The translations under genes and the position numbers were made by a program. Below, piece by piece: positions 10,275 to 24,984 of a DNA stretch of 25,009 nt. The stretch is from IMG/VR virus record IMGVR_UViG_3300044985_000354, positions 1 to 25,009 of that record; one strand, 5' to 3'. Each line of letters starts with the position of its first letter. Position 1 is the stretch's first letter. Origin of the DNA: a virus. Under the pieces are notes generated by a model. The model saw only the letters and a list, made by a program, of their open reading frames with translations. It was not told the origin of the DNA and did no database searches.

Positions 10275-11234
10275 TTACTCAGCCTCATCCATTGCGCCGA
10301 CCATGCGTTCAACAAAGCGTCCGGCAATTTCGTAGTTGGTGAGAGCCTCTACAACAGAGTCGTAGATCTGCCCCAGGCACATCACACACTCTTCGTTCTG
10401 AACAGCGTCTGAGATAACTCCACGGAGTCCGCGAAGGTCGTTGATGAGGTCCTCTGCAAAAAGGCAGAACTTTTCGAGAACTTCCTTCTCGCTCTCGCCG
10501 ATCTCTGTGTCGGACAGAGACTCTACGAAAGGTAGGTAGGCTGTCTCAGCCTGGGTGTGCGTCGACTCAAGGCGGGACGCAACGACCGACAGGTCGGCCA
10601 TGACTCCCTCCCGGTACAACTCAAAGGTCTCTTCCGGGATGTCGTCGGTCTCGTACAGCGGCGTGTACTTGGCTTCGAGTTGGTTCTTGTTGATTGCCTC
10701 AAGATGGTCAACCACCTGGCGGTGGATCTCCTCTTGCTGCTCACCGTAAACCTCTCGCCAAGCCCTCTTGCCTGCAAGACCCGCCTTGATCTCAGCAGCA
10801 AAATCTCGCGCCGCCTCAACCTGCTTCTGCTCGTGTAGGCTGACCAGCTCCAAGATGTGACCAGTCGCCACATCTGCATCCTCTGAAAGGATGGCGTCTA
10901 CGGCGCTCAGCGTGTAATCGCGAACAGCCTTAGCCGCGTTCGTGCTATCGACCACCGGGACGTCGAGTGAAGACGGATCTGAGAGGACAACCTCCCCGTT
11001 CACGCTCTCCAGCTTGGCCTCGAAATACTCACCGGCTGCAGTTCCAACCACAACACGGTCAGTAAATGTGGCAAGCCTGGCAATCTCAACATTGCTATCC
11101 CCGACAAAGAGGCTTCGCTGCTCCTCTAAGGCGACATCGATGCGAGACGTCAGTTGCTCATAGGAGCCCTCGACGAGCTTCTTGACCACACTGAGTGGTA
11201 CTACTTTTTCTTTGAGCGATAGGATTGCCGACAC
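10275..11234 (-). CDS. Hypothetical acidic helical protein next to the portal gene
   Basis: I place the start at GTG 11234, which has AGGGA eight bases upstream and gives about 319 residues. The frame extends to a TTG at 11294 with no visible ribosome binding site (339 residues), so the N-terminus is uncertain. The protein is rich in Glu, Asp, Val and Ala. It begins with a region of mixed strand/helix (residues about 30-110, including FVGDSNVEIARLATF) and continues as long helices. CVMC and an aliphatic helix lie near the C-terminus. It lies directly after the portal in transcription order and before the acidic 368-aa protein. No family is recognised; an assembly or core protein is the likeliest class. 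Confidence 0.6.
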   Translation of the reverse strand: MSAILSLKEKVVPLSVVKKLVEGSYEQLTSRIDVALEEQRSLFVGDSNVEIARLATFTDRVVVGTAAGEYFEAKLESVNGEVVLSDPSSLDVPVVDSTNAAKAVRDYTLSAVDAILSEDADVATGHILELVSLHEQKQVEAARDFAAEIKAGLAGKRAWREVYGEQQEEIHRQVVDHLEAINKNQLEAKYTPLYETDDIPEETFELYREGVMADLSVVASRLESTHTQAETAYLPFVESLSDTEIGESEKEVLEKFCLFAEDLINDLRGLRGVISDAVQNEECVMCLGQIYDSVVEALTNYEIAGRFVERMVGAMDEAE

Positions 11235-11320
11235 GAGTTGATTCCCTGTGTTCGAGGCCGATACTAGATGTATGAGAAAACCTATGTCAAGCAAGCGTCG
11301 ATGGGTTTATCGAGAAAACC

Positions 11321-13132
11321 CTACCGAGGCATGCCCGCTCTCATCTCATTTACGAGTTCACGCAACTCACTGATACGCCTGGCGGTTGACGTGTTACTCG
11401 ACAATATTTTGTCTAAATTATCCTCGACCAATTTCTCGTGGTCGCGGTTCCCACTAAGCAACTCTTGCTCGGTAATGGGACGATAGCCAAGGTTCTGTCT
11501 CATTTGTGGCCACATACGGGACAGGCTTCCGACCTGACGAAAATGTTGCCTCAAATCCTCTGATGCTTTTGTCCCCGGAGGGGCCATCGCCATCTGTTGG
11601 GCCTGCTGTTTCGTCTGAATGTCAGCCTGCGCTTGTTGCTGTTGCGCCTGAGCTTGGCCCTGGACATCCATCTGTAGACCCATCGACTTCGCTTGGATCT
11701 CCGCGTCAGCCAGCTGCTCGTTGTGACGCTCCTTGATGATGTACTCAATCTCGCCTTCGCTAAGACCAAAGATTCTTTGGAGAATCCAGTGAAGCGAAAC
11801 GAATTGGCTCATCCTGCCTGCGAAGTCAGCCTTGGCGTTTCTCACCTCAAGCTGAGCGAGTTCGAAGATCGAACTCGGGATGGTCATGAAGATGTCGTAA
11901 TCAACCGCCGCCGGGTTGATGTTCAAAGAGGCGAGGTGGACCCTCGCCATCTTCTTCATTCCATTCCTCAATTCACGCTGCAAACGGAGGACGGTGCGGG
12001 CGAACCTCACATCCTCCTGTGACAACACACCTTTTGCGCGCGGAGCTTCAGAGCCGAGGTAAACCTTCGGCACTTTGATTGCGGAATAGAGCTTCAGCTT
12101 GAAGTATTCGATGTCCTCCATGTGCTGCCACGATGGACTGCCCACGACATCGATCTTCGTCGCCTGTACCCCCTTGCGGACCGGGACAAAGAAGTCCTCG
12201 TCCTGCGAAAGCGGGTTGTATTTGAGATCCAACTTCCCGGTCTGCGGGTTGTAGAACTTGGTCTTCTTGTACTGCTGGCGAACCTTGTGAAGGAACGCGA
12301 ACGCTTCCTTGGGAGGAAGATCGCCGACGTCGATGTAGAACGCGTACCTCTGGGGAGCCCTCTGCAGGCGGTACACCATCGCGGCATCTTCCAGGAGCAT
12401 GAGGCGCTTCCAGATCCAGCGAGCTGGCTCTAGCACCGAGTACCCGTAGATTGCCCTACGGTGCTTGGACCGAAGGCGCATGTGGCACACCTCCCAATCC
12501 TCCAGGGCCGCGTACTTGTCATGCCGTCTGTTTGTCCCAGCCATGCGCTGGGTCAGCAGCTGCTTGAATTCGTCTGGGCTGTAGCCGAACCGACCCTTGA
12601 AGTCCTGGACGAACCCGAACAGCTCACCCCTGCGGCCCTCGATTCGCCTCATCGTAGGCGGCGGCAAGAAGTTCATCCCGACGAGCCCGTCGCCGGTGAC
12701 CAGCATCTCCTCATAGTCGTTCCCGTACTTCACGAGGGTTCGGGCTATCTCCCAAATCTCCTCGTCAATGCGCAGCCGTCTATGGAAGAGGTCGTCGAGG
12801 ATCGTCTGCACCGTCTTGTCCGGTGAGTCGACCCACAACACCTTGTTTTCCAGGCTCTCTGTTTGAGTCGCGTCGTCAGCATAGATGTCGATTGCCGAAG
12901 CCAGCTCCGGGTAATCGTCCATCTCCTCGTAGTCCACGAACCTCGCCATGAGGTCGTGTTCCAGCTTCAGATAGTCACTGAGTACGTCGTACCCATAGGA
13001 CTGAAGGAGGTCGAACCCGGTTTGCGGGTAACTAGAAGAGGTGCCGCCCTTTGCGAGACTGAGAACAACCTGCTCTTTGTCCCAACGCAGAAGCTGACGA
13101 ACTCTGCCGCCTACATTTCCCCAGAAACCCAT
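11321..13132 (-). CDS. Portal protein, T4 gp20-like
   Basis: This 603-aa protein has the hallmarks of T4-type portal vertex proteins. MARFVDYEEMDDYPELASAIDIYADDA (about residues 62-88) is the common portal stem-entry segment. YNPLSQDEDFFVPVRKG, DVVGSPSWQHMEDIEYFKLKLYSAIKVPKVYLG and SQEDVRFARTVLRLQRELRNGM follow, matching the gp20 family order of an acidic FF-hinge, the iEDieYF region and the crown. The C-terminal region is a Gln/Ala-rich coil (QGQAQAQQQQAQADIQ, about 495-515). Twelve subunits form the DNA entry channel, bind terminase and start prohead assembly. ATG 13132 has GAGGA eight bases upstream. It leads the block portal, core proteins, protease-scaffold, capsid. Confidence 0.92.
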   Translation of the reverse strand: MGFWGNVGGRVRQLLRWDKEQVVLSLAKGGTSSSYPQTGFDLLQSYGYDVLSDYLKLEHDLMARFVDYEEMDDYPELASAIDIYADDATQTESLENKVLWVDSPDKTVQTILDDLFHRRLRIDEEIWEIARTLVKYGNDYEEMLVTGDGLVGMNFLPPPTMRRIEGRRGELFGFVQDFKGRFGYSPDEFKQLLTQRMAGTNRRHDKYAALEDWEVCHMRLRSKHRRAIYGYSVLEPARWIWKRLMLLEDAAMVYRLQRAPQRYAFYIDVGDLPPKEAFAFLHKVRQQYKKTKFYNPQTGKLDLKYNPLSQDEDFFVPVRKGVQATKIDVVGSPSWQHMEDIEYFKLKLYSAIKVPKVYLGSEAPRAKGVLSQEDVRFARTVLRLQRELRNGMKKMARVHLASLNINPAAVDYDIFMTIPSSIFELAQLEVRNAKADFAGRMSQFVSLHWILQRIFGLSEGEIEYIIKERHNEQLADAEIQAKSMGLQMDVQGQAQAQQQQAQADIQTKQQAQQMAMAPPGTKASEDLRQHFRQVGSLSRMWPQMRQNLGYRPITEQELLSGNRDHEKLVEDNLDKILSSNTSTARRISELRELVNEMRAGMPR

Positions 13133-13968: not shown

Positions 13969-14631
13969 CTACCAGGCCTCTATGTGGAAAACGCCGTAGT
14001 ACAGGTAGTCGTAACTGAGACGAATCGTGTCAGTGTCCGGTGGGTTGACGAACTCAATGGCCAGCTGCCCTGTAGCGCGATCTACCAATGCAGACACTAT
14101 CTCCGCCGCGTCCGCTCCACCCAGGGTAGAGGTTCCGAGGATGGTCGCCGTCTTCGGCACAGCGGCGACTTCCCAGTTCACGGTGATGACAGCAACATCA
14201 ATTGGAATGTGCGCGAACTGAATCGCGAACGTCGTCTCCACTCCGTCCTCTGTGGGAGTAACCGTTGAGCCAGAGGTGGTTCCTGGGTCTTCTGAGACTA
14301 CCCCCGTGGAAACCCCTGCTCCTGTTCCGCGAACAGCAATGCCGCCCTCGTACATGCCCCAAAACAACTCGGAGTCGTTGGCGGGAACCTCTCCATGGAC
14401 GGTCACTCCATCAAACGACCACTCGATGGCTGTATCAATAGATCTGATCCTCACATGGGAAGCCCACGCCTGCTCGGGCTCCGCAGGATCCTTGGGATCG
14501 GGCCTCTCAAAGGAGAATGACCTGTCAGAGAAGTCTGCAGTATTCTCCCCAGTTTCGTAGAACCTCAGAGATTTACGATTGCTTGGAAATGACGACGGAA
14601 ACGCGGGAGGAAGGACGCCGAGACTAGGCAT
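13969..14631 (-). CDS. Putative virion protein with inserted Ig-like domain (paralogue of the 111-aa gene)
   Basis: This 220-aa protein shares its first 102 residues and its last eight (GVFHIEAW) with the adjacent 111-aa protein, for example GVLPPAFP, NRKSLRFY, FERPDPKD and SFDGVTVHG. Between them lies an extra block of about 109 residues (103-212): a Thr/Ser/Gly linker, then a beta-rich domain ending in RLSYDYLYY. That domain resembles the insertion in the capsid protein. The start ATG overlaps the stop of the upstream gene (TAATG), with AGAGG seven bases upstream. A role as decoration or fibre-like virion protein is inferred from the Ig-like domain and the location among head genes. Confidence 0.6.
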   Translation of the reverse strand: MPSLGVLPPAFPSSFPSNRKSLRFYETGENTADFSDRSFSFERPDPKDPAEPEQAWASHVRIRSIDTAIEWSFDGVTVHGEVPANDSELFWGMYEGGIAVRGTGAGVSTGVVSEDPGTTSGSTVTPTEDGVETTFAIQFAHIPIDVAVITVNWEVAAVPKTATILGTSTLGGADAAEIVSALVDRATGQLAIEFVNPPDTDTIRLSYDYLYYGVFHIEAW

Positions 14632-14966
14632 TACCAGGCCTCTATGTGGAAAACGCCACCGCCCCTGATTGCGATCCCTCCCTCAAAGCGATCCCAGTAA
14701 ACCTGGGCCTCGCCTGAGGGAATGAAGCCATGGACAGTGACTCCATCGAACGAAATCTCACAGTCAGCCGTCAAACACCGGACCCGGATGGAGTTGGACC
14801 ACCCTTGCTCTGGCTCAGCTACATCCTTGGGATCTGGACGCTCAAAGGCGAACGAATTCGTGGCGAATGCGCCATCAGCCGTCCCTGTCGCATAGAACCG
14901 CAGGGACTTGCGGTTCGTCGGATTCTCGGCTGGAAATGCTGGGGGTAGTACGCCGGGGCTGGGCAT
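14631..14966 (-). CDS. Putative small virion protein (paralogue of the 220-aa gene)
   Basis: This 111-aa protein is a compact version of its downstream neighbour: 102 residues of a beta-rich domain followed directly by GVFHIEAW. The fold looks like a single beta-sandwich, with alternating hydrophobic residues in SIRVRCLTADCEISFDGVTVHG and a Gly-rich end (EGGIAIRGGG). ATG 14966 has AGGAG eight bases upstream. Tandem duplication in the head module between holin and portal suggests a repeated surface or accessory component. No named family is recognised. Confidence 0.6.
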   Translation of the reverse strand: MPSPGVLPPAFPAENPTNRKSLRFYATGTADGAFATNSFAFERPDPKDVAEPEQGWSNSIRVRCLTADCEISFDGVTVHGFIPSGEAQVYWDRFEGGIAIRGGGVFHIEAW

Positions 14967-16742: not shown

Positions 16743-18737
16743 CTACCCCTGGATGAACGGCATCATCAGTGAATGCTCATCTGTCATCTCTCGCTGTTCG
16801 TCAACCATCGGATCCGCATGCGCTGAGAGCCCCTTCACGATACCCATCGGGGCGCCATGATACATCGTCGTCAGGGTGTACGTGATGCCCGCCAAGGCGT
16901 CGGCAACATCCTTCGACTTACCTCTCGGATGGTCAACCTTGTTCCTTACATTGTCCTTCTGGATCGTCCTCAGCTCTTCCAGTAGAGGCTCGTATTCATA
17001 GAACGAAAGCCGCCCCTCGTAAATCGCCGCCTTCGTTGTGTCGTAGGCATCCATCGGCTTGTCCACCGACAGGCGCTCCGAGGTGATGCCCTTCGAATTG
17101 AACTTCTGGATGGTTGGCGCCGAGTTGAACTGGTCCATCGTCACGAGGCCAATTGCAAACCCGTGCTTCTGGAACTGGTAAACGAGCCCTCGAATCATCC
17201 CGTGGTCGATTTCTCCACCGATGGGAGGCTTGATCCTCAGCAGGAAGTCCACCCAGATCTTCGGCGCTGGCTCGGTGTACTCCTCCTGGGTGTGCAGGTC
17301 GCGCCGAACCACCGTTTTGTACCCCGTCACGCAGCCGACAGCTACGCCCGTACTGTCTGAGTTCAATGACGGATCTATGTGGATATGCCTAGTTACTCCT
17401 GGGTGATACAGCGGCTGCCACGCCTGGAACACCTCCGCCCCGTCACGCATCTCGACCTGGTTGGCAATCGACGTCCAGCTCATCTGGCCTGGCTCGGTTT
17501 GGACCCATTCCGCTACGGTGAACGGATGCTTACGCTTTGTATCGATGCAGGGGATAATGCGGTCCCTCTGCTGGATGAACGGGGAAACGGAGGTCGTTTC
17601 GATTCCGGCGACATCTCGGATCGCGTCTTCGAGACTGTTCTCAAAGTCGTTTCGAAAGTCGATGGGGACCTCGACGATAATCATCCCCTCCTGGAGGTTT
17701 GCCCTAAGTGGTTCCACCTCTTCGGGTTCTAAGATTTTCGAAGGAACTTGGTCGTTGCCTACCAGTACATGGAAGATCTCAGACGAATACACATCCTTCT
17801 TGACGTGCCACGTCGCGTAGTCGCGCACGAATACAGTCGGGTCATTCTTGGACTCCTTGATCCGCTTGGCCGTGAAGTCCTCCTTAGTCTGCTTAGAAGA
17901 CACGACAATCATCATTCCCGGAAGCTTTCCGTGCTTCTGGAAACGTGATTTCATACGACGAACCAGCTGGTCGTATAGGAATTGAGCCCTGTCCGTGGCT
18001 CCGACTCTGTTATCGATGCTGCCCTTCTTCCGCATCGGCTGCATGAAGTTGGACTCGTCGATCATGGCCGCAAAAACGTTGAGACCCAGGGCTGCGCTGT
18101 CAGTGGACGCGCGAGCGGCAACCTGGATCTTCTTCGGAAAGATGATCTCCTTCTTCATCGACTTGAAGGGGAAGTGGTCCTTGAAGTACTGGCTCTCCCC
18201 AATCTTCGTAGCGATGTTGTCGAAGGCAACCTTGATGGCGAGGTCCTCTTTGACCGAGAGGACCACAAACGAGATGTCCGAGCCGCGACCAATACCGAGG
18301 CTGCGGTGCGGATCCCTCATGCACGACAGCTCGTAGAGCACCCGGCACGCAGCGATAGACGCAAAGAATGTCTTGCCCCAGCCAATCGAACCCGTGAGCA
18401 CCGCCTCGCGATAGCCGCCAGCGAACAGTTCCTCCATGTCCTCCAGGAGTTTCGGGTACAGGACGTCGCAGGTCTTCCCTAGGTAGTAGGGGTCCATCAC
18501 AAACGTCTCAATATCAACTGGTTGGCGAGTGTACTCTCCGTCGTTGAGAACATCGTAGATGCGAGGAGGAGGCTCCTCCATCTCGTTGAACGCGGGGTCG
18601 TCAAGCTCCTTCAGGCAAAGCATGACCGCCGCCTGCTCCTCTTCACTAAGGTGAGAAAATTCCCTCTGAATAATCTCGGCAACTTCCTGCGGGGTGCGCT
18701 CGCTTACCAGCCGACCACCGAGATCCTTGATGGCCAC
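16743..18737 (-). CDS. terL: Terminase large subunit
   Basis: This 664-aa packaging motor has an ATPase domain with Walker A GSIGWGKT at 116-123. Walker B is FAAMIDES with Asp227 and Glu228, and there is a coupling motif near VVSSKQT (278-284). The C-terminal RNase H-type nuclease domain shows acidic residues in HIHIDPSLNSDSTG (Asp455), VTMDQFNS (Asp535) and VDHPRGKSKDVADALAG (602-618). The enzyme cuts concatemeric DNA and pumps it through the portal using ATP. The GTG start at 18737 follows the previous stop by two bases, with GGAG five bases upstream of it. It follows a probable small terminase gene, as usual. Confidence 0.95.
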   Translation of the reverse strand: MAIKDLGGRLVSERTPQEVAEIIQREFSHLSEEEQAAVMLCLKELDDPAFNEMEEPPPRIYDVLNDGEYTRQPVDIETFVMDPYYLGKTCDVLYPKLLEDMEELFAGGYREAVLTGSIGWGKTFFASIAACRVLYELSCMRDPHRSLGIGRGSDISFVVLSVKEDLAIKVAFDNIATKIGESQYFKDHFPFKSMKKEIIFPKKIQVAARASTDSAALGLNVFAAMIDESNFMQPMRKKGSIDNRVGATDRAQFLYDQLVRRMKSRFQKHGKLPGMMIVVSSKQTKEDFTAKRIKESKNDPTVFVRDYATWHVKKDVYSSEIFHVLVGNDQVPSKILEPEEVEPLRANLQEGMIIVEVPIDFRNDFENSLEDAIRDVAGIETTSVSPFIQQRDRIIPCIDTKRKHPFTVAEWVQTEPGQMSWTSIANQVEMRDGAEVFQAWQPLYHPGVTRHIHIDPSLNSDSTGVAVGCVTGYKTVVRRDLHTQEEYTEPAPKIWVDFLLRIKPPIGGEIDHGMIRGLVYQFQKHGFAIGLVTMDQFNSAPTIQKFNSKGITSERLSVDKPMDAYDTTKAAIYEGRLSFYEYEPLLEELRTIQKDNVRNKVDHPRGKSKDVADALAGITYTLTTMYHGAPMGIVKGLSAHADPMVDEQREMTDEHSLMMPFIQG

Positions 18738-18739
18738 TG

Positions 18740-19492
18740 TTACTCCGACTCCGCAGCGACTGGCTCAACATCTATGACGTCCTCAACATGGACATCTATC
18801 ACCGACGTCCCCGCGACGCCCGCTGCGCCTGCCACCAGGTCTGTCGCATCAATGTCGGCCTTGGCACTCAGCGCCATCAGGGTCTCAACCATGCCTAAAA
18901 CCCGGCGCCGAGAGTCGGGGCTCGTCATAATGGCTCCCATGTTCTCGCCGTGACGGGTTGCAATCGCCATAGAGGCCTGCCCTGTGACTGACAGCTCCCC
19001 CAGCTGCCGCTTAGCCAGGCCCAGGTCCATCTTCAGAGTGGCGCTCTGCTTGAGGATCTTCATTGCCACGAAGATCTCTCGACCCGTCGTGGGGAACAGC
19101 TTGTTGATGTTCGCCTCGTTGGTGACGTCGATCTCCACGCGCTTCATCTGCATCTCGTACAGCCGCTGAAGCTCGCTTAACTCATTGAGACCATTGGACA
19201 GCTTCGTGTTCGCGTGCTTCGCAGCGATAGGGTTGCGGGTGGAAAGAACCAGCTCAGCCGGTGGGATCGACTGGCGAAACTCGTCGACCATCTTCTTGAC
19301 GTACTTAGCGCTCAGGTGCGTCAGCTCGTTCTGGTCCTCCTGGATCATCCGAACGACGTCATTCGACGACCAGCCCATCCTGATGCGCCGCTCGACCTCA
19401 TCGAAACACCTGCACTCCCTCAGCGCCGTCCCCTTCTTCTTGTTAGGGGCGTCGCGGCTAACAGGCTGAATCGTTGGACGTCTTTTACTCAT
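18740..19492 (-). CDS. Probable terminase small subunit
   Basis: This is 250 residues from ATG 19492 (MSKRRPTIQPVSRD), supported by GAGGT eight bases upstream; the frame extends to 19531 without support. Residues about 30-85 look like a helix-turn-helix-type DNA-binding region (VERRIRMGWSSNDVVRMIQED, then HLSAKYVKKMVDEFRQSI). The middle is helical and could oligomerise. The C-terminus is Ala/Val/Asp-rich and acidic (VIDVHVEDVIDVEPVAAESE). The placement immediately before the large terminase, after a gap full of palindromes, fits a small subunit that recognises the packaging site. Family identity is not certain from sequence. Confidence 0.6.
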   Translation of the reverse strand: MSKRRPTIQPVSRDAPNKKKGTALRECRCFDEVERRIRMGWSSNDVVRMIQEDQNELTHLSAKYVKKMVDEFRQSIPPAELVLSTRNPIAAKHANTKLSNGLNELSELQRLYEMQMKRVEIDVTNEANINKLFPTTGREIFVAMKILKQSATLKMDLGLAKRQLGELSVTGQASMAIATRHGENMGAIMTSPDSRRRVLGMVETLMALSAKADIDATDLVAGAAGVAGTSVIDVHVEDVIDVEPVAAESE

Positions 19493-19611
19493 GGAATTAC
19501 CTCGACAAAGAGATCTCTGCCAACGCAACAAAGCCTAACGCAGATAGGCTTTTACCTCAACAAAGCACAGCAGTGCTACAGGAGGTATCGACGAAAGTAC
19601 TTTCGTCCCAG
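19493..19611. promoter_or_regulatory. Palindrome-rich intergenic region before the terminase genes; candidate packaging or control site
   Basis: The 119-base gap between the third kinase-like gene and the small terminase gene contains four inverted repeats. These are an 18-base perfect palindrome (19590-19607, GACGAAAGTACTTTCGTC), a 5-bp hairpin (19564-19577), an 8-bp hairpin (arms 19530-19537 and 19545-19552) and a 10-base palindrome (19509-19518, AGAGATCTCT). A 14-base direct repeat with one mismatch lies at 19497-19510 and 19552-19565; the first copy includes the small terminase ribosome binding site. None of the stems has a clean U-run on the minus strand, so I do not call a terminator. 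A pac/cos-like or regulatory role is inferred from position. Confidence 0.5.
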
Positions 19612-20955
19612 CTATTGCTTCGCTTGGAGGTTCTTGGCGAAGTCGAACGCCGCACCAGTCGCCGCCGACATGATCGAGTTGACCACTTCAACGACCTTCT
19701 GGTTCCGCCCTTCACCGAAGCCGTAGCCCCGCCGCATCGGAACCAGGACGTTCCTGGTGAACTCTTCCGGCCTGGCCAGTACCGCCTCCGGATCCTCTTG
19801 CATGAACGTCATGCGAGCGAAGAACCCAGCAATACAGCGAGGGGGCACGGAGTGCTCAATCAACACCTGACCCAAGAGCAGCGCAAGCTCGTCGGTCATC
19901 CCCTCTGCTATTTGGCCAAATGTCTGGGCACATTCATCGACATACGCGTCCTGCACAAGGGCAGAGAGGTGCAGCAAATCAGCACCGTGAACCGGGACCG
20001 GCCTCGGCGAATCCTCGGTAGGCCCGGTTGCCCTCTTGCCCCAGCCGGTCAGTCTGGCCTGGATATAGGCATCCGCAGTGGCCACGGGATCGGAGAATAC
20101 TAGAGCGTTGTCGTACAGGACCAGCGCATCAGAGGTCCTGTTATAAAGGATGCTGCAGAGCAACCTGTCGACGGACCCGGTGAGGAAGTCGAACGCGATA
20201 GCTCGATAAATGCTGTGCCTGAGCCTGTCGCTGGCGCGCTCCCAGCGAGTCGCCTCATCCGCCCCCAGGGTGCCCCAGAACTCTACGAAGTTGGATGCCG
20301 AGAACGGGAGCGCCTGTAGCAAGCCGACCGTTCCGAGGCGCTCGTCAACCTCGATAGAAGGAACCCTCATCGCTGACGAGATCCTCGACCTCACCGCGTC
20401 CGAGATCAGTGGGACCAGGTTGACCTCGCGCGCAGCAACAGGAGCCACCATGTCCTCCATTCCGCAAGCCTTGGCCGCCTCGTAGGCTGCCAGCTCCCGA
20501 CGTAGGACATCGTAGTGCCCGGGGTCCAGCATGAACCGCGTGCCCCAGACCTCGTAGACATGATCGCGACCGAGACCACCGAACTTGAGCAGAGCGCTGC
20601 GTACCCGGCCATCTTTGTTCCGGTACCGAGCCCAGAACGAGGAGTTCAGACCATCTAGGTGCCTCTCCTCGACATGCTCAATCTCTGCTTTCCTGAGCAA
20701 ATCCCACAGAATTGGCTCAGGGACCGTCCATGGAGGGTCTTCACTGGAGCCGTCAATCCTGCGAGACGGCACCAACAGCACGCCGGTCTTCCGGTTGACC
20801 TTCGGGATCGCAGGCAAAGGCTCCGCCACGACAGCACTCCGCCGCGCCTCAGCCTCTCGCTGGGCATCCTTCTCGGCCTCCGTAGGTGCCGGGGGCTCGT
20901 GCGATAACGGTCCGAAGACGCTACGCAGTCGGGCTATTGGGGGTGCTACAGTCAA
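19612..20955 (-). CDS. Kinase-fold protein with degenerate active site (paralogue of the 561-aa protein)
   Basis: This 447-aa protein resembles PI3K/HipA-type atypical kinases. It has a probable ATP Lys in SALLKFGG (Lys124), a helix RRELAAYEAAKAC (152-164), a catalytic-loop-like DFLTGSVDRLLCSIL (256-270) and a metal-motif-like LVLYDNALVF (Asp282). The canonical loop is N-x-D-R-H-x-x-N; here Asp263 remains but both Asn positions are Ser (261, 268) and the His is Leu. It aligns along its length with the 561-aa protein, for example VYEVWG/VYSVWG and LGQVLIEHSVP/LGRALIEHKIP. The start is TTG 20955 with GGAGG six bases upstream (20962-20966), overlapping the previous gene by 35 bases. It may be a pseudokinase or have altered chemistry. 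Confidence 0.55.
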   Translation of the reverse strand: MTVAPPIARLRSVFGPLSHEPPAPTEAEKDAQREAEARRSAVVAEPLPAIPKVNRKTGVLLVPSRRIDGSSEDPPWTVPEPILWDLLRKAEIEHVEERHLDGLNSSFWARYRNKDGRVRSALLKFGGLGRDHVYEVWGTRFMLDPGHYDVLRRELAAYEAAKACGMEDMVAPVAAREVNLVPLISDAVRSRISSAMRVPSIEVDERLGTVGLLQALPFSASNFVEFWGTLGADEATRWERASDRLRHSIYRAIAFDFLTGSVDRLLCSILYNRTSDALVLYDNALVFSDPVATADAYIQARLTGWGKRATGPTEDSPRPVPVHGADLLHLSALVQDAYVDECAQTFGQIAEGMTDELALLLGQVLIEHSVPPRCIAGFFARMTFMQEDPEAVLARPEEFTRNVLVPMRRGYGFGEGRNQKVVEVVNSIMSAATGAAFDFAKNLQAKQ

Positions 20956-21262
20956 TCTCGGCCTCCGGCAGCAACTCTACTAGGTCAGACGCCTTGCCAA
21001 GATACTGAAAAGCAGACCTCAGGTCATCCACGACAGCCGGATACAGGGCGATATGGCTGCCTCCTACACGGCTGCAGATACTGGCCAGAGTGCCCTCCTC
21101 GACGTCCGCCTGAAGGACAGTCCCGTCCGACCGAAGGAACTTGCGCCTCACGACGCCCTCCTCCGTCTCCCAGTAGACAGCGTTTACTTTTGTGAAATCA
21201 GGCGAATAGCGAAACAGTACATTCATGGTCTTAGTACAAGGCAGCGCCCCGATATTACACAT
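20921..21262 (-). CDS. Small protein of the third kinase couplet, unknown function
   Basis: This 113-aa protein starts at ATG 21262, overlapping the stop of the kinase-like gene before it by eight bases (ATGTGTAA). A second ATG at 21226 (MNVLFRYSPDFTKV) may be the real start, as the first 12 residues look poorly ordered. The protein appears as a compact alpha/beta domain with strands such as AVYWETEEGVVRRKFL and SHIALYPAVVDDLRSAFQYL. It overlaps the TTG start of the 447-aa kinase-like gene, so the two are probably translated together. It holds the same place as the 84-aa and 171-aa proteins in the other couplets, but I see no convincing sequence similarity to them. Confidence 0.6.
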   Translation of the reverse strand: MCNIGALPCTKTMNVLFRYSPDFTKVNAVYWETEEGVVRRKFLRSDGTVLQADVEEGTLASICSRVGGSHIALYPAVVDDLRSAFQYLGKASDLVELLPEAEIDCSTPNSPTA

Positions 21263-22553
21263 TCTTCTCGTTCAGGTGTCGCCTTTCGAGGACCCCATCA
21301 ATCCCGTGAGTCATTAGCTCCCTGGCGTTAGTCTGCAGCTCTTTGGCGTCGTCGTCTGACAACCCCATGTGATGTTTGCCTTTTTCGGAATGGCCCCCCA
21401 TAGCCAACCACTGCAAGGTCTTCTGCATTCTCTCTGGGAACTCTATCGGAAGCGGCTTGCCGTCTTCGCCCTTGGGGGCGTTGGCGGTGTAGTCGAGCTT
21501 GCCGCCAGGCTGGAAGACAGAACGAAGCCCTGTCTTCCCTTTCTCCTGCCTGGTTCCCTTGGTGTGCTCCGAGGCAAATGAGAGGTCATGGTCGATCAGG
21601 ATCGGATGTCCCTCTCCGTGGATCATCACATTGTCCTCATGACCATCGCTGTTCGACTGCAGCAAGTGCATGACAAGGCCATGAACCCGGTGCTCGTGAT
21701 CAACCCCTTCCAGCTGCGCGTCCGTCGCGTCGCCAACGGTCACATGGTTGGGCTCGTGCTGAACGACGTGGGTGGCCTTGCCCGCATGGTACCTGGCCAT
21801 CCTCATCTTCTTCGGAGGGCCGACCATGTTGCCTTCCTGGTCGAAATCGCCCTCGTGAGCCAGATCGTGCTCATCTGGGTGCACGATGTCCTTGTCCGAC
21901 TTGTCCATTTGGTCGTGGTCATGAAACTTCGATTCGAAGCCAGGCAGGACCATGTGATGGGCGCCCATTGCCGCCGCAATAGAGTATGCCGCCTCGTGTC
22001 GCTTGCCCCAGTGCTCTGGCTCGTGATCGTCGGCCGCCGCCTCGTGGGGTTTGGACACGAATGAGGCCCCACCATGCATCGTCCCGTGAAAGTTCTGATT
22101 GGCTGACCGTCCGCGAAGGTGGCGTACCGCTTTCACGCCCTTCTCGTCCTTGTGGTACCCCCCGTGAAAGGCGTCATGTCTCTCGTGACCGTGAGCAAGA
22201 TCTTTCCTCGCGCGCTCCGCCAGAGAGGGCTCCTCTTCTGAGTGGTCAAACGCGTGGCGCTTGCCCTTCGGTCCAGCCACCTGCTTCTTTCGTTCAGCCT
22301 CTTGTCTGGCCGCCCTTTCCCTCCCCTTCTCTATTGCCTTCTTGTCCGCCGCAGAAGACTTGATCTTCGGCTCCTTCCTGAAGGGCACGTTGGGAGGGTC
22401 ATACGTTGGGGCCGGTTCTGATTTTGCCGCTGGCACTTTCTTCTGGAGCTTCGCGGTCTTTGGCTCCTCTTTGCCCTTGGACGAGCGCACGAGGCTCGAC
22501 AGAGATGGCGTCTGCTCTAGCAACTCAGCGGTTGAGATCCATCGCCGAACCAC
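21255..22553 (-). CDS. His-rich kinase-fold protein with intact catalytic loop
   Basis: I start it at GTG 22553, which overlaps the stop of the 84-aa gene (TAGTG) and has GGTGG nearby, giving 432 residues. Longer in-frame starts at 22610 and 22685 overlap that gene. A disordered Lys-rich stretch (about 20-95) precedes a kinase-like domain. Its features are GASFVSKPHE (Lys168), helix HEAAYSIAAAMGAHH (186-200), catalytic loop QSNSDGHEDNVM (Asn301, Asp303, His305, Asn308) and metal motif PILIDHDLSF (Asp321). This fits PI3K/HipA-type atypical kinases. It is unusually rich in His and Asp between the lobes. Substrate unknown. Of the three kinase-like genes it alone keeps all expected catalytic residues. 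Confidence 0.6.
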   Translation of the reverse strand: MVRRWISTAELLEQTPSLSSLVRSSKGKEEPKTAKLQKKVPAAKSEPAPTYDPPNVPFRKEPKIKSSAADKKAIEKGRERAARQEAERKKQVAGPKGKRHAFDHSEEEPSLAERARKDLAHGHERHDAFHGGYHKDEKGVKAVRHLRGRSANQNFHGTMHGGASFVSKPHEAAADDHEPEHWGKRHEAAYSIAAAMGAHHMVLPGFESKFHDHDQMDKSDKDIVHPDEHDLAHEGDFDQEGNMVGPPKKMRMARYHAGKATHVVQHEPNHVTVGDATDAQLEGVDHEHRVHGLVMHLLQSNSDGHEDNVMIHGEGHPILIDHDLSFASEHTKGTRQEKGKTGLRSVFQPGGKLDYTANAPKGEDGKPLPIEFPERMQKTLQWLAMGGHSEKGKHHMGLSDDDAKELQTNARELMTHGIDGVLERRHLNEKNV

Positions 22554-22807
22554 TAGTCCACCACTTCGGTCCGCACCATCGAACAGCACTGCAGTCGCCG
22601 CCGCAACCATTCCAGCGGAGAGAGGTCCATTCCCTTTGCTTGGATCTCCACATCCTCTCTGGCGTAGGGCACTAAGCCCTCCCAAATGCCGCTAGTCTGC
22701 AACTTGCCTTCCGGGCCCTGCCAGACGTCGGCGGCAAAGTCACTGACCATTTCACCGTCAGCCATCTTGATCTGGTAGAGGCGCAAGCGTCTAGTGTCAT
22801 TTTTCAC
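22553..22807 (-). CDS. Small protein of the second kinase couplet, related to the 171-aa protein
   Basis: This 84-aa protein starts at GTG 22807, overlapping the stop of the 561-aa gene by 11 bases, with GGAGG upstream in GGAGGGGGCGCCAA. It aligns with the C-terminal half of the 171-aa protein: NDTRRLRLYQI/GDTRRLKIISI, a W-Q-x-x-x-G-x-L-x-x-S-G block, and MDLSPLEWLRRRL/LDISPLTVLHARI. It looks like a small beta-rich domain with one C-terminal helix. Its stop overlaps the kinase start that follows. Position and homology suggest a partner or chaperone for the adjacent kinase-like protein; this is inference. Confidence 0.65.
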   Translation of the reverse strand: MKNDTRRLRLYQIKMADGEMVSDFAADVWQGPEGKLQTSGIWEGLVPYAREDVEIQAKGMDLSPLEWLRRRLQCCSMVRTEVVD

Positions 22808-24482
22808 TTGGCGCCCCCTCCATATCCGTCTCCTCCTGTTCCTCGTCCGTCTGTCGCATCTCAGCTACAAAGTCGAACTCGCGAACAAGGACCTTCTTCA
22901 TTGTCTGGTTCACAAAGACGAAGACCCCCTCCATTTCTGGGAGGTCTTCCCCGGATAGAATCTGGGCGTACATCTGCGCCACAAAGTACGGGTTGCGCGC
23001 TATCTCTCTAGAGTGTGTGGCCAGCAGCCATATACGGCTCAGCGCCCCAGCAACATGCATTGAGGGGATCTTGTGCTCAATCAGTGCACGACCTAGCTCG
23101 GTCGCACGATCACCCTTCATCCTGCTGGCGGTTCCGATCCCTATCTTCTCGAAGTCGTCTAGCTCGCGCTTGCTACCGCGCGTTGCCAACTTCATGAGCG
23201 GATCGCTCCACAACATGGGGATGCCAATACGAGGATCCAGGTCGGTTGAGAGGAAGTCGCCTATCTTATTGTCCAGCACCGCCTGGCCCGTCTTTCTGGG
23301 GCAGGGGAAAGACAGCTCTCCACCCGAGACATGGATGGGGTGACGAGTATCGTCACAGAAGGTGATGTCACCCATGTTACGGTCGCCGTTCCACACGATG
23401 TAGTCGAGCATCGCAATGCGCAAAAACGCGATACGTCTACCCTCTGGAATGAAATCCCAGATGTAGTTCAGGAGATCCTTCCTGTCGACGTCGCCTTCGT
23501 TCTTGAAGAAGCGCCGAAACCAATCTTCTTTCTCAATGGTCCACATGTCACGGTGAGCCAAGAAGAGAACCGCGTATCCACCAAGCTGTTTGCGCAGCGT
23601 GTCGGGGTTCTCGCCGGTACGAAGAGCGATCGACTCGTTGTACTCTCGCCTCCGCTCGATGAGATCGTTCGGCAAAACCGCTTCGAACTCACCGTAGTCA
23701 TCAAAGCGAAATGCCATCGGGGGCACCAGGTCATCAAAGGCGCAAGCCTTTGATAGCTCATAGACTGCTGCCGCCCTACGAGACAGGTCTCCCTCGCCTT
23801 TTGATAGCTCGTAGAACTCGCCCCACACAGAGTAAACCGTTGGGTCCCGGAGACTCTCCAGGCACATGTACGCGTTCTCGGAAAGGTGGTCACGCCCCTG
23901 CAGCTTGACGATCATCAGACCGTTCTCAGAGTCAACGACCTTCATCCGCGTGATCGATCCTGTCCTCAGCCGCTCTATTGTCTCCGGCTCACCCACGCCC
24001 CACAGCACAGGGTCTGTAGGCACCACGCTGTTCACGGGCGTGTCGTAGTTCATGGGGTTCGGGGCATGCGCGCGACGATTGTCTGCGTCGTACCTACGCC
24101 TCACCGACGCCGGAACTGGATCCGAATCCGCAACGTCTTTAGCGCTTAGCCCAATCTTCCACGCGATGTCGTGGTACCGAACCTCAGTCCGTGTAACCGG
24201 CCCTACAGGTTCCGGCTGAGCCTCTGGTGGCTCATCATCCGGCAAACCTGGAACGGAAACGTTCGAGGCTTTTTTCAGCAGCTTCGAAACCTCAGCTTCG
24301 CCATCGCCAGATTTGCTGGGGCTTCCCGGGCGAGCGGCTGAGTACACATCGCCAGGGTTCGCCCTCCGAACATGGAAGGCTTGCTTCACCGTCCTCGTGC
24401 CGCCGCTCTTGCTCTTCCTCTTGACGCTCTTGATGACGCGGACAAGTCGGCCAAACTGTTCTTCGACATTAGGCGTTGTCAT
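22797..24482 (-). CDS. Kinase-fold protein, probably degenerate (first couplet)
   Basis: This 561-aa protein has about 170 N-terminal residues of basic and disordered sequence, then a kinase-like domain. Features are MIVKLQGRD (Lys193), helix RRAAAVYELSKACAFDDL (235-252) and catalytic loop LDYIVWNGDRNMGDI (359-373) with Asn365, Asp367 and Arg368. The last loop Asn is replaced by Asp372, and the region of the metal-binding Asp reads HPIHVSGGELSFP, lacking it. A C-terminal helical region (about 460-545) is shared with the 447-aa paralogue. ATG 24482 overlaps the upstream gene by 14 bases, with GGAG ten bases before. The family is the PI3K/HipA-like atypical kinase fold, by motif reading only. 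Activity may be lost or changed. Confidence 0.6.
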   Translation of the reverse strand: MTTPNVEEQFGRLVRVIKSVKRKSKSGGTRTVKQAFHVRRANPGDVYSAARPGSPSKSGDGEAEVSKLLKKASNVSVPGLPDDEPPEAQPEPVGPVTRTEVRYHDIAWKIGLSAKDVADSDPVPASVRRRYDADNRRAHAPNPMNYDTPVNSVVPTDPVLWGVGEPETIERLRTGSITRMKVVDSENGLMIVKLQGRDHLSENAYMCLESLRDPTVYSVWGEFYELSKGEGDLSRRAAAVYELSKACAFDDLVPPMAFRFDDYGEFEAVLPNDLIERRREYNESIALRTGENPDTLRKQLGGYAVLFLAHRDMWTIEKEDWFRRFFKNEGDVDRKDLLNYIWDFIPEGRRIAFLRIAMLDYIVWNGDRNMGDITFCDDTRHPIHVSGGELSFPCPRKTGQAVLDNKIGDFLSTDLDPRIGIPMLWSDPLMKLATRGSKRELDDFEKIGIGTASRMKGDRATELGRALIEHKIPSMHVAGALSRIWLLATHSREIARNPYFVAQMYAQILSGEDLPEMEGVFVFVNQTMKKVLVREFDFVAEMRQTDEEQEETDMEGAPSEK

Positions 24483-24984
24483 CGTCCACTAGCTCCGCAC
24501 GCATAAACGCGCTGCGTGCAATGCGTGCATGAAGCACGGTTAGGGGCGAGATGTCCAACGCAACGGACGTTCTCTCGTACCGCGCCGCAACTGTTGGTTC
24601 GAACAGCATGACCGCAGCCAGCCCAGAGCCGTGCAGTTGTCCGCTCTCAGATTGCCAGGCCTCACCGACGATAGCGCTGTCCATCCCGGACATCGGATCG
24701 ATGGAAATGATCTTCAGTCGCCTGGTGTCGCCGACGATGTCCCCCACCCTTGGTCCTACGTAGTCGTCAACCGACTTTCCCTTTGCTGGATCTTCCGCTG
24801 GTGCCTCTTCTGGTGTCTCGCCGTCTTCTGGAGCTTCGCCCTCTGCTGGAGCTTCACTTGATGGAGGGTCGCCCTCGCCCTCGACAAGACGAGCCCTCAT
24901 CTCGGGAGCCATGGCCATGACTTCCTCCCACGAGAACTTGTACCGTTCCATCAGGTACCAGGCGTCTTCTTCCAGCCGACCCAT
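24469..24984 (-). CDS. Small protein of the first kinase couplet; possibly incomplete at its N-terminus
   Basis: This is 171 residues from ATG 24984. The frame is still open to the right window edge, and no strong ribosome binding site is seen, so the gene may begin outside. The first 35 residues are helical (MGRLEEDAWYLMERYKFSWEEVM), followed by a Pro/Glu/Ala-rich acidic linker (about 37-68, PEEAPAEDPAKGK). The C-terminal 90 residues are homologous to the 84-aa protein (GDTRRLKIISI, AWQSESGQLHGSG, LDISPLTVLHAR). Its stop lies inside the start of the 561-aa kinase-like gene. No function is known. Confidence 0.6.
   Translation of the reverse strand: MGRLEEDAWYLMERYKFSWEEVMAMAPEMRARLVEGEGDPPSSEAPAEGEAPEDGETPEEAPAEDPAKGKSVDDYVGPRVGDIVGDTRRLKIISIDPMSGMDSAIVGEAWQSESGQLHGSGLAAVMLFEPTVAARYERTSVALDISPLTVLHARIARSAFMRAELVDDDNA

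Follow-up and report, generated by a model that had tools for sequence, protein, structure and literature searches.

The PI3_PI4_kinase superfamily (PF00454) includes PI3K-like and HipA-like kinases of bacteria and phages, and the pairing of a small protein with a kinase is known from HipS-HipT (PMC6581861, PMC9325769). Among tailed viruses, gp16 of the HSTV-2/HRTV-7-like haloviruses (named a "phosphatidylinositol kinase") contains a PI3K-like domain (Pfam E=1.5e-5) and is encoded in the head module. In HSTV-2 gp16 (positions 10647-12119 of record L113) this domain is fused to an N-terminal domain; the whole protein occurs in 8 records only, while the N-terminal ~130 aa alone are common to HF1/HF2-type viruses. 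In eukaryotes, the secretory kinase FAM20C is activated by a paralogous pseudokinase, FAM20A. To our knowledge, phage kinases are usually single genes, and phage pseudokinases have hardly been described.

In this study, we analysed a stretch of viral DNA of 25,009 bases (the window), in which portal, protease, major capsid, terminase large subunit (TerL) and terS genes all lie on the minus strand, and in which a row of six genes, three of them encoding large proteins with kinase-like features, adjoins the terminase genes. A sequence-only reading of the window had described this row as a triplicated kinase array inside a head-assembly operon. By comparing the row across related phages, and by combining profile searches with structure prediction, we arrive at a different picture, in which a single predicted active kinase would be accompanied by two predicted pseudokinases.

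Results

Organization of the array

The array consists of six minus-strand ORFs of 171, 561, 84, 432, ~101-113 and 447 aa, which span positions 24984 to 19612 and adjoin the terS candidate and TerL on their upstream side, in the order s1-561-s2-432-s3-447 and then terS-TerL (large proteins are named here by their length, small ones as s1 to s3). As the sequence-only reading had it, these are six adjacent, co-directional genes upstream of the terminase, and all six prove to be intact. It had also described every junction as overlapping, which is slightly overstated. From s1 through terS the junctions measure -14, -11, -1, +28, -35 and +80 nt, and the 28-nt gap between 432 and s3 arises because the start of s3 is taken as the conserved ATG at 21226 and not at 21262, where a longer ORF begins. 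The former is probably the true start, as s3 begins there, with MNVLF, in almost every relative. The 432-s3 junction varies among relatives from -8 to +46 nt, while the overlaps at 561-s2 and s3-447 are constant wherever these genes are present. Downstream, the terS candidate is an ORF of 263 aa from a TTG (18740-19531, minus strand; phrog_35167, E=1.5e-9), whose true start is probably the ATG at 19492, and it is followed by TerL (16743-18737, minus strand; phrog_2), with tblastn matches to the TerL of Vibrio SIO-2-like phages and of Rhizobium phage RHph_Y1_11 (E to 2e-97). Elsewhere in the window, the first 104 residues of a 220-aa ORF (13969-14631) share 59% identity with the 111-aa protein next to it (14631-14966), and the pair looks like a tandem duplication because relatives have a single copy.

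Conservation in related phages

Close relatives were found with TerL as the anchor, and profiles of each large protein then added more. The array recurs next to terS-terL in nine other distinct related contigs, which answers the question of whether the couplets accompany terL in other phages; the row is complete in eight (L006, L007, L010, L011, L015, L018, L019 and L110) and partial in L008, and a further contig, L014, is near-identical to L011 and was not counted as a distinct phage. Of the phages with the full row, L110 has the most divergent TerL, and it too carries 432 and s3. L008 has the row s1-561-s2-447, without 432 and s3, and the rest of its 42-kb record yielded no 432 homolog; apart from this missing 432, every record examined has a single copy of each large family. 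The array was absent from TerL relatives near 50% identity, though terS was present, and in those that were read terS is preceded by DNA polymerase I or other genes. Orthologs of the terS candidate stand before TerL in some 30 loci.

Array proteins are about 30-50% identical between related contigs, with median pairwise identities of 0.37-0.44 for array genes; the corresponding values are higher for terS (0.56) and TerL (0.71). In two informative pairs dN/dS was well below 1, a clear sign of purifying selection, for all genes except s3 between L018 and L019 (0.155/0.223), the ratios being rough for those genes in which dS is saturated. Chance ORFs or broken frames are rejected as an account of the row, since the frames are intact, the row is syntenic in nine other contigs and dN/dS is low, and synteny at such identities points to a core, selected function. 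The array thus appears to belong to the core genes of a single clade of tailed phages, which are large and uncultured. Between L018 and L019, dS is 0.22-0.35 across s2-432-s3-447 and 2.7-4.3 outside (about 2.8 at 561 and 4.3 at terS); low values inside and high values on both flanks argue that the two phages probably exchanged this block in one piece.

Several of these relatives have intein-like inserts in TerL (starting with Cys or Ser and ending in HN) at the Walker A motif, between GSIGWGK and T, with coordinates 8054-11698 in L007, 8429-11662 in L008 and 13867-18258 in L019. L007 TerL has two inserts, of 134 and 410 aa, six residues apart, and in L019 TerL a further insert of 376 aa lies near residue 537. 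Portal inserts of about 330-370 aa occur in L007 (14490-17309), where the insert is intein-like, and in L006 (14919-17867), where the alignment did not place its ends. Intein-type inserts are also apparent in DNA polymerase I of distant TerL relatives (L036 6022-8778, L037 4461-7241 and L047 2334-4586).

The 432 protein, a predicted active kinase

The protein that retains the full set of catalytic residues is the 432-aa product (21255-22553, minus strand), which has a variable N-terminus and is probably an active PI3K/HipA-like kinase. Its N-lobe Lys (K168, in an xxKP strand), catalytic Asp (D303), Asn (N308) and Mg-binding Asp (D321) are invariant in 9/9 family members, within the motifs D303-G-H-x-x-N308 and I-D321-H-D. 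PF00454 matched all eight members scanned (best E=2.8e-4), with 13.6-14.6 bits for the window protein, below the gathering threshold of 27.1 bits. The AF2 model has an N-lobe sheet, alphaC, hinge and catalytic loop in that order, and almost all of its top 50 Foldseek matches in the PDB belong to the PI3K family. Structure prediction of the large proteins, as proposed in the sequence-only reading, thus retrieved PI3K-family structures first for both 432 and 561, at low confidence (mean pLDDT 56 and 62, respectively; best Foldseek PDB E about 2e-3 to 3e-3, with low TM-scores).

Searches at the sequence level returned little. Neither phmmer with 432 and 561 nor profile searches gave anything significant against PDB sequences, the best match for 432 being PI4K-beta (E=0.055, over the catalytic loop). 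By tblastn against reference phages, 432 had one weak match, a PI3K/HipA-like protein of Alteromonas phage P24, and 561 and 447 had no relatives. Viral contigs searched with 432 or 561 as a single query likewise yielded no relatives, and of two genome-contig scans the first found no 432 homolog and the second only distant TerL.

561 and 447, predicted pseudokinases

The other two large proteins, 561 (22797-24482, minus strand), which has a C-terminal helical domain, and 447 (19612-20955, minus strand), are paralogs (hhalign E=6.6e-29 over 368 columns), and are predicted to be pseudokinases because most catalytic residues have been lost. Among the ten members of the 561 family, the catalytic Asp is kept in eight (lost in L006 and L008), the Asn is replaced in all (by Asp in nine and by Ser in L110), and the N-lobe Lys is absent from all except L110; the Mg-binding Asp is missing at its usual position. 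Glu389 of 561 is conserved in 10/10, and this conservation, together with the Asp in place of Asn, makes it conceivable that 561 may have an unusual residual catalysis, e.g. AMPylation. In the 447 family no catalytic position is conserved, and the Asp residues of the window protein are not kept in relatives. The Lys, N-x-D and distal Asp motifs that the sequence-only reading had seen in all three proteins are thus borne out in 432 but not in 561, which has neither the Lys nor the distal Asp, or in 447. With the complete residue set found only in 432, three equivalent active kinases are rejected.

The kinase-like fold itself fared better. The AF2 model of 561 has a kinase-like topology, its top Foldseek matches in the PDB were PI3K, VPS34, ATM, PI4K2 and HipT (E from 1.9e-3), and its top match in BFVD was the PI3K/PI4K protein of HSTV-2 (E=1.9e-4). 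TIGR03843 (NCBIfam, SCO1664 family) matched weakly in five of nine 561 members (best E=0.0057), and the window protein scored 11.8 bits over the alphaC/beta4 region, where the cut-off is 172.4. A direct hhalign comparison of 561 with 432 was not significant; significance came once profiles were merged. The merged 561+447 profile scored 43.3 against 432 combined with HSTV-2 gp16 and the Alteromonas phage P24 protein, compared with 13.2 +/- 1.9 (maximum 16.7) for 60 column-shuffled controls, and aligned alphaC/beta4, hinge and catalytic loop in register, at an HH-suite probability of only 53%. The alphaC/beta4 segment is common to all three large families, and the paralogy of 447 with 561 suggests a PI3K/HipA-like fold for 447 as well. 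Pfam for 432, Foldseek for 432 and 561, this paralogy and the shuffled controls together support the fold class that had been proposed from motifs.

Small proteins and pairing

The small proteins s1 (171 aa; 24469-24984) and s2 (84 aa; 22553-22807), both on the minus strand, are paralogs (profile comparison E=4e-14). s1 has an N-terminal extension and a conserved core of ~85 aa, with orthologs in all related contigs. s3 (~101 aa; 20921-21226, minus strand) has no similarity to s1 or s2, is always found together with 432, and is missing along with it in L008, where s2 directly abuts the 447 ortholog. None of the three matched Pfam or PHROGs. Given the paralogy of 561 with 447 and of s1 with s2, and the direct contact of s2 with 447 in L008, the simplest reading would be that one couplet was duplicated to give s1-561 and s2-447, and that a cassette of kinase plus s3 sits between s2 and 447. 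The pairs of small and large proteins noted earlier therefore stand, but "triplicated" does not describe two paralogous couplets plus 432-s3, in which 432 is only a remote relative of 561 and 447.

Transcriptional context

The region upstream was read in six relatives, and in these the array is preceded by a ParB-like gene (phrog_26387, E=4e-51), which ends a few bases from s1 where s1 was read; farther upstream, L010 has UvsX/RecA-like, Cas4-like exonuclease and RuvC-like genes. Rhizobium phage RHph_Y1_11 has a ParB-like gene, then a small gene, then TerL, and no array. On the other side, the gap between 447 and terS is 75-128 bp in all 10 phages (80 bp in the window), and holds at the same place a 16-bp palindrome (19591-19606; ACGAAAGTACTTTCGT in the window and GCGCAANNNNTTGCGY in most relatives), with the exact pattern in 9/10 phages and one mismatch in L110. 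At a near-fixed distance from it, all ten have TTG-N17/18-TANNNT (in the window TTGAGG-N17-TAGGCT, 19532-19560, minus strand), 5' of the likely terS start. A generic promoter scan did not detect this promoter-like element, whose consensus is weak, so that it is identified through its conservation. These features suggest a separate promoter for the terminase, and an array that closes the transcription unit of the ParB-like gene, with operon boundaries as deduced from sequence. The claim that the array lies inside a head-assembly operon is accordingly rejected: the ParB-like gene directly before s1 and the conserved element separating 447 from terS place the array probably outside the head operon.

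The pre-terS palindrome recurs at L011 7880, L015 5878, L018 5662 and L019 4570, close to where a SANT/Myb-like regulator gene begins (in L011, L015 and L019 this gene was read). Its presence at both places suggests a shared phage transcription signal.

Discussion

We put the probability at roughly 45% that the array is a phage-core kinase-pseudokinase module, composed of one predicted active kinase, two paralogous pseudokinases and their small partners, a reading drawn from gene order, conservation, fold class, and the retention and loss of residues. More tentatively, it is possible that these proteins form a dedicated complex, in which the active PI3K/HipA-like kinase is regulated by the two pseudokinases and the small co-translated partners, as a core module at the boundary of replication and packaging. 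The overlapping genes would then yield co-translated subunits of one or more complexes, with s1 and s2 serving, by descent, as one partner for each pseudokinase and s3 linked to the kinase. The pseudokinases could be scaffold or allosteric subunits, as FAM20A is for FAM20C, or substrate-recognition subunits, and 432 would phosphorylate a protein of the phage or its host, or attach another portion of ATP to it, probably at about the time when replication gives way to packaging. The pseudokinases, at least, can act alone, because L008 keeps both without 432.

The fixed position beside terS/terL in all relatives might instead reflect the role that the sequence-only reading had suggested, in the virion or on injection; the large proteins would then be minor head or neck components, or be packaged and ejected with the DNA, and the targets of the kinase would be virion proteins or early host proteins. 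Such a role is conceivable given HSTV-2 gp16, in which a PI3K-like domain is fused to a head-module protein, but we regard it as unlikely: the array follows the ParB-like gene and is set off from terS by the conserved element, its proteins (median identity 37-44%) have diverged far more rapidly than TerL (71%), and no structural domain was recognised in them. The same rapid divergence relative to terS and TerL, the decayed catalytic residues and the apparent recombination of the s2-432-s3-447 block between phages would suit counter-defence or host takeover, in which host factors would be the targets that a fast-evolving kinase and its pseudokinases bind or modify, the latter serving as decoys or binders. 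Several small genes 3' of TerL diverge about as fast, however, and this explanation too seems improbable. The least probable is a HipBST-like toxin-antitoxin or superinfection-exclusion system, in which the kinase would poison the host by phosphorylating one of its translation factors and the small proteins would counteract the kinase. A small protein beside a HipA/PI3K-fold kinase, the overlapping genes and HipT among the Foldseek matches of 561 recall such a system, but the PADLOC defence models gave 0 matches for the six array proteins, the array is invariably present and syntenic rather than patchy, and s1 and s2 pair by descent with the pseudokinases and not with the active kinase.

If the kinase-pseudokinase module is the correct reading, the array would be a natural model for how pseudokinase regulation arises, with dead paralogs kept at about 40% identity, and protein phosphorylation would be a regular part of the life cycle in a group of phages.

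Comparison with known systems

PI3K-like kinase domains are already known in phages, HSTV-2 gp16 being one example, and it is the arrangement that is without equivalent in the collections searched, i.e. reference phages, genome contigs, defence models and the literature (most subscription papers lay outside the search); literature searches on phage pseudokinases and HipA-like virion kinases found nothing relevant. With the PI3_PI4_kinase superfamily the array proteins share fold topology, and the 432 family also shares the D-x-H-x-x-N ... I-D motif and the Lys in the xxKP strand; they differ in that the window 432 falls below the Pfam threshold, 561 and 447 are without catalytic residues, and the context is not that of a lipid kinase. 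The likeness to the SCO1664 family is limited to the weak matches of 561-family members, which are far below the cut-off and in a family without the Mg-binding Asp. HipBST resembles the array in its small protein beside a kinase of this fold, whereas the array consists of conserved core genes with three large proteins, two of them predicted pseudokinases, and its six proteins had no HTH, HipA or HipT family matches in Pfam, PHROGs or PADLOC. HSTV-2 gp16, the best viral structural match of 561, is likewise a PI3K-like domain of a tailed virus near head genes, but is a single fusion protein with intact motifs, encoded after the capsid gene of an archaeal virus. A parallel in mechanism, proposed as an analogy only, would be FAM20A-FAM20C, where an active kinase is likewise accompanied by a related pseudokinase partner.
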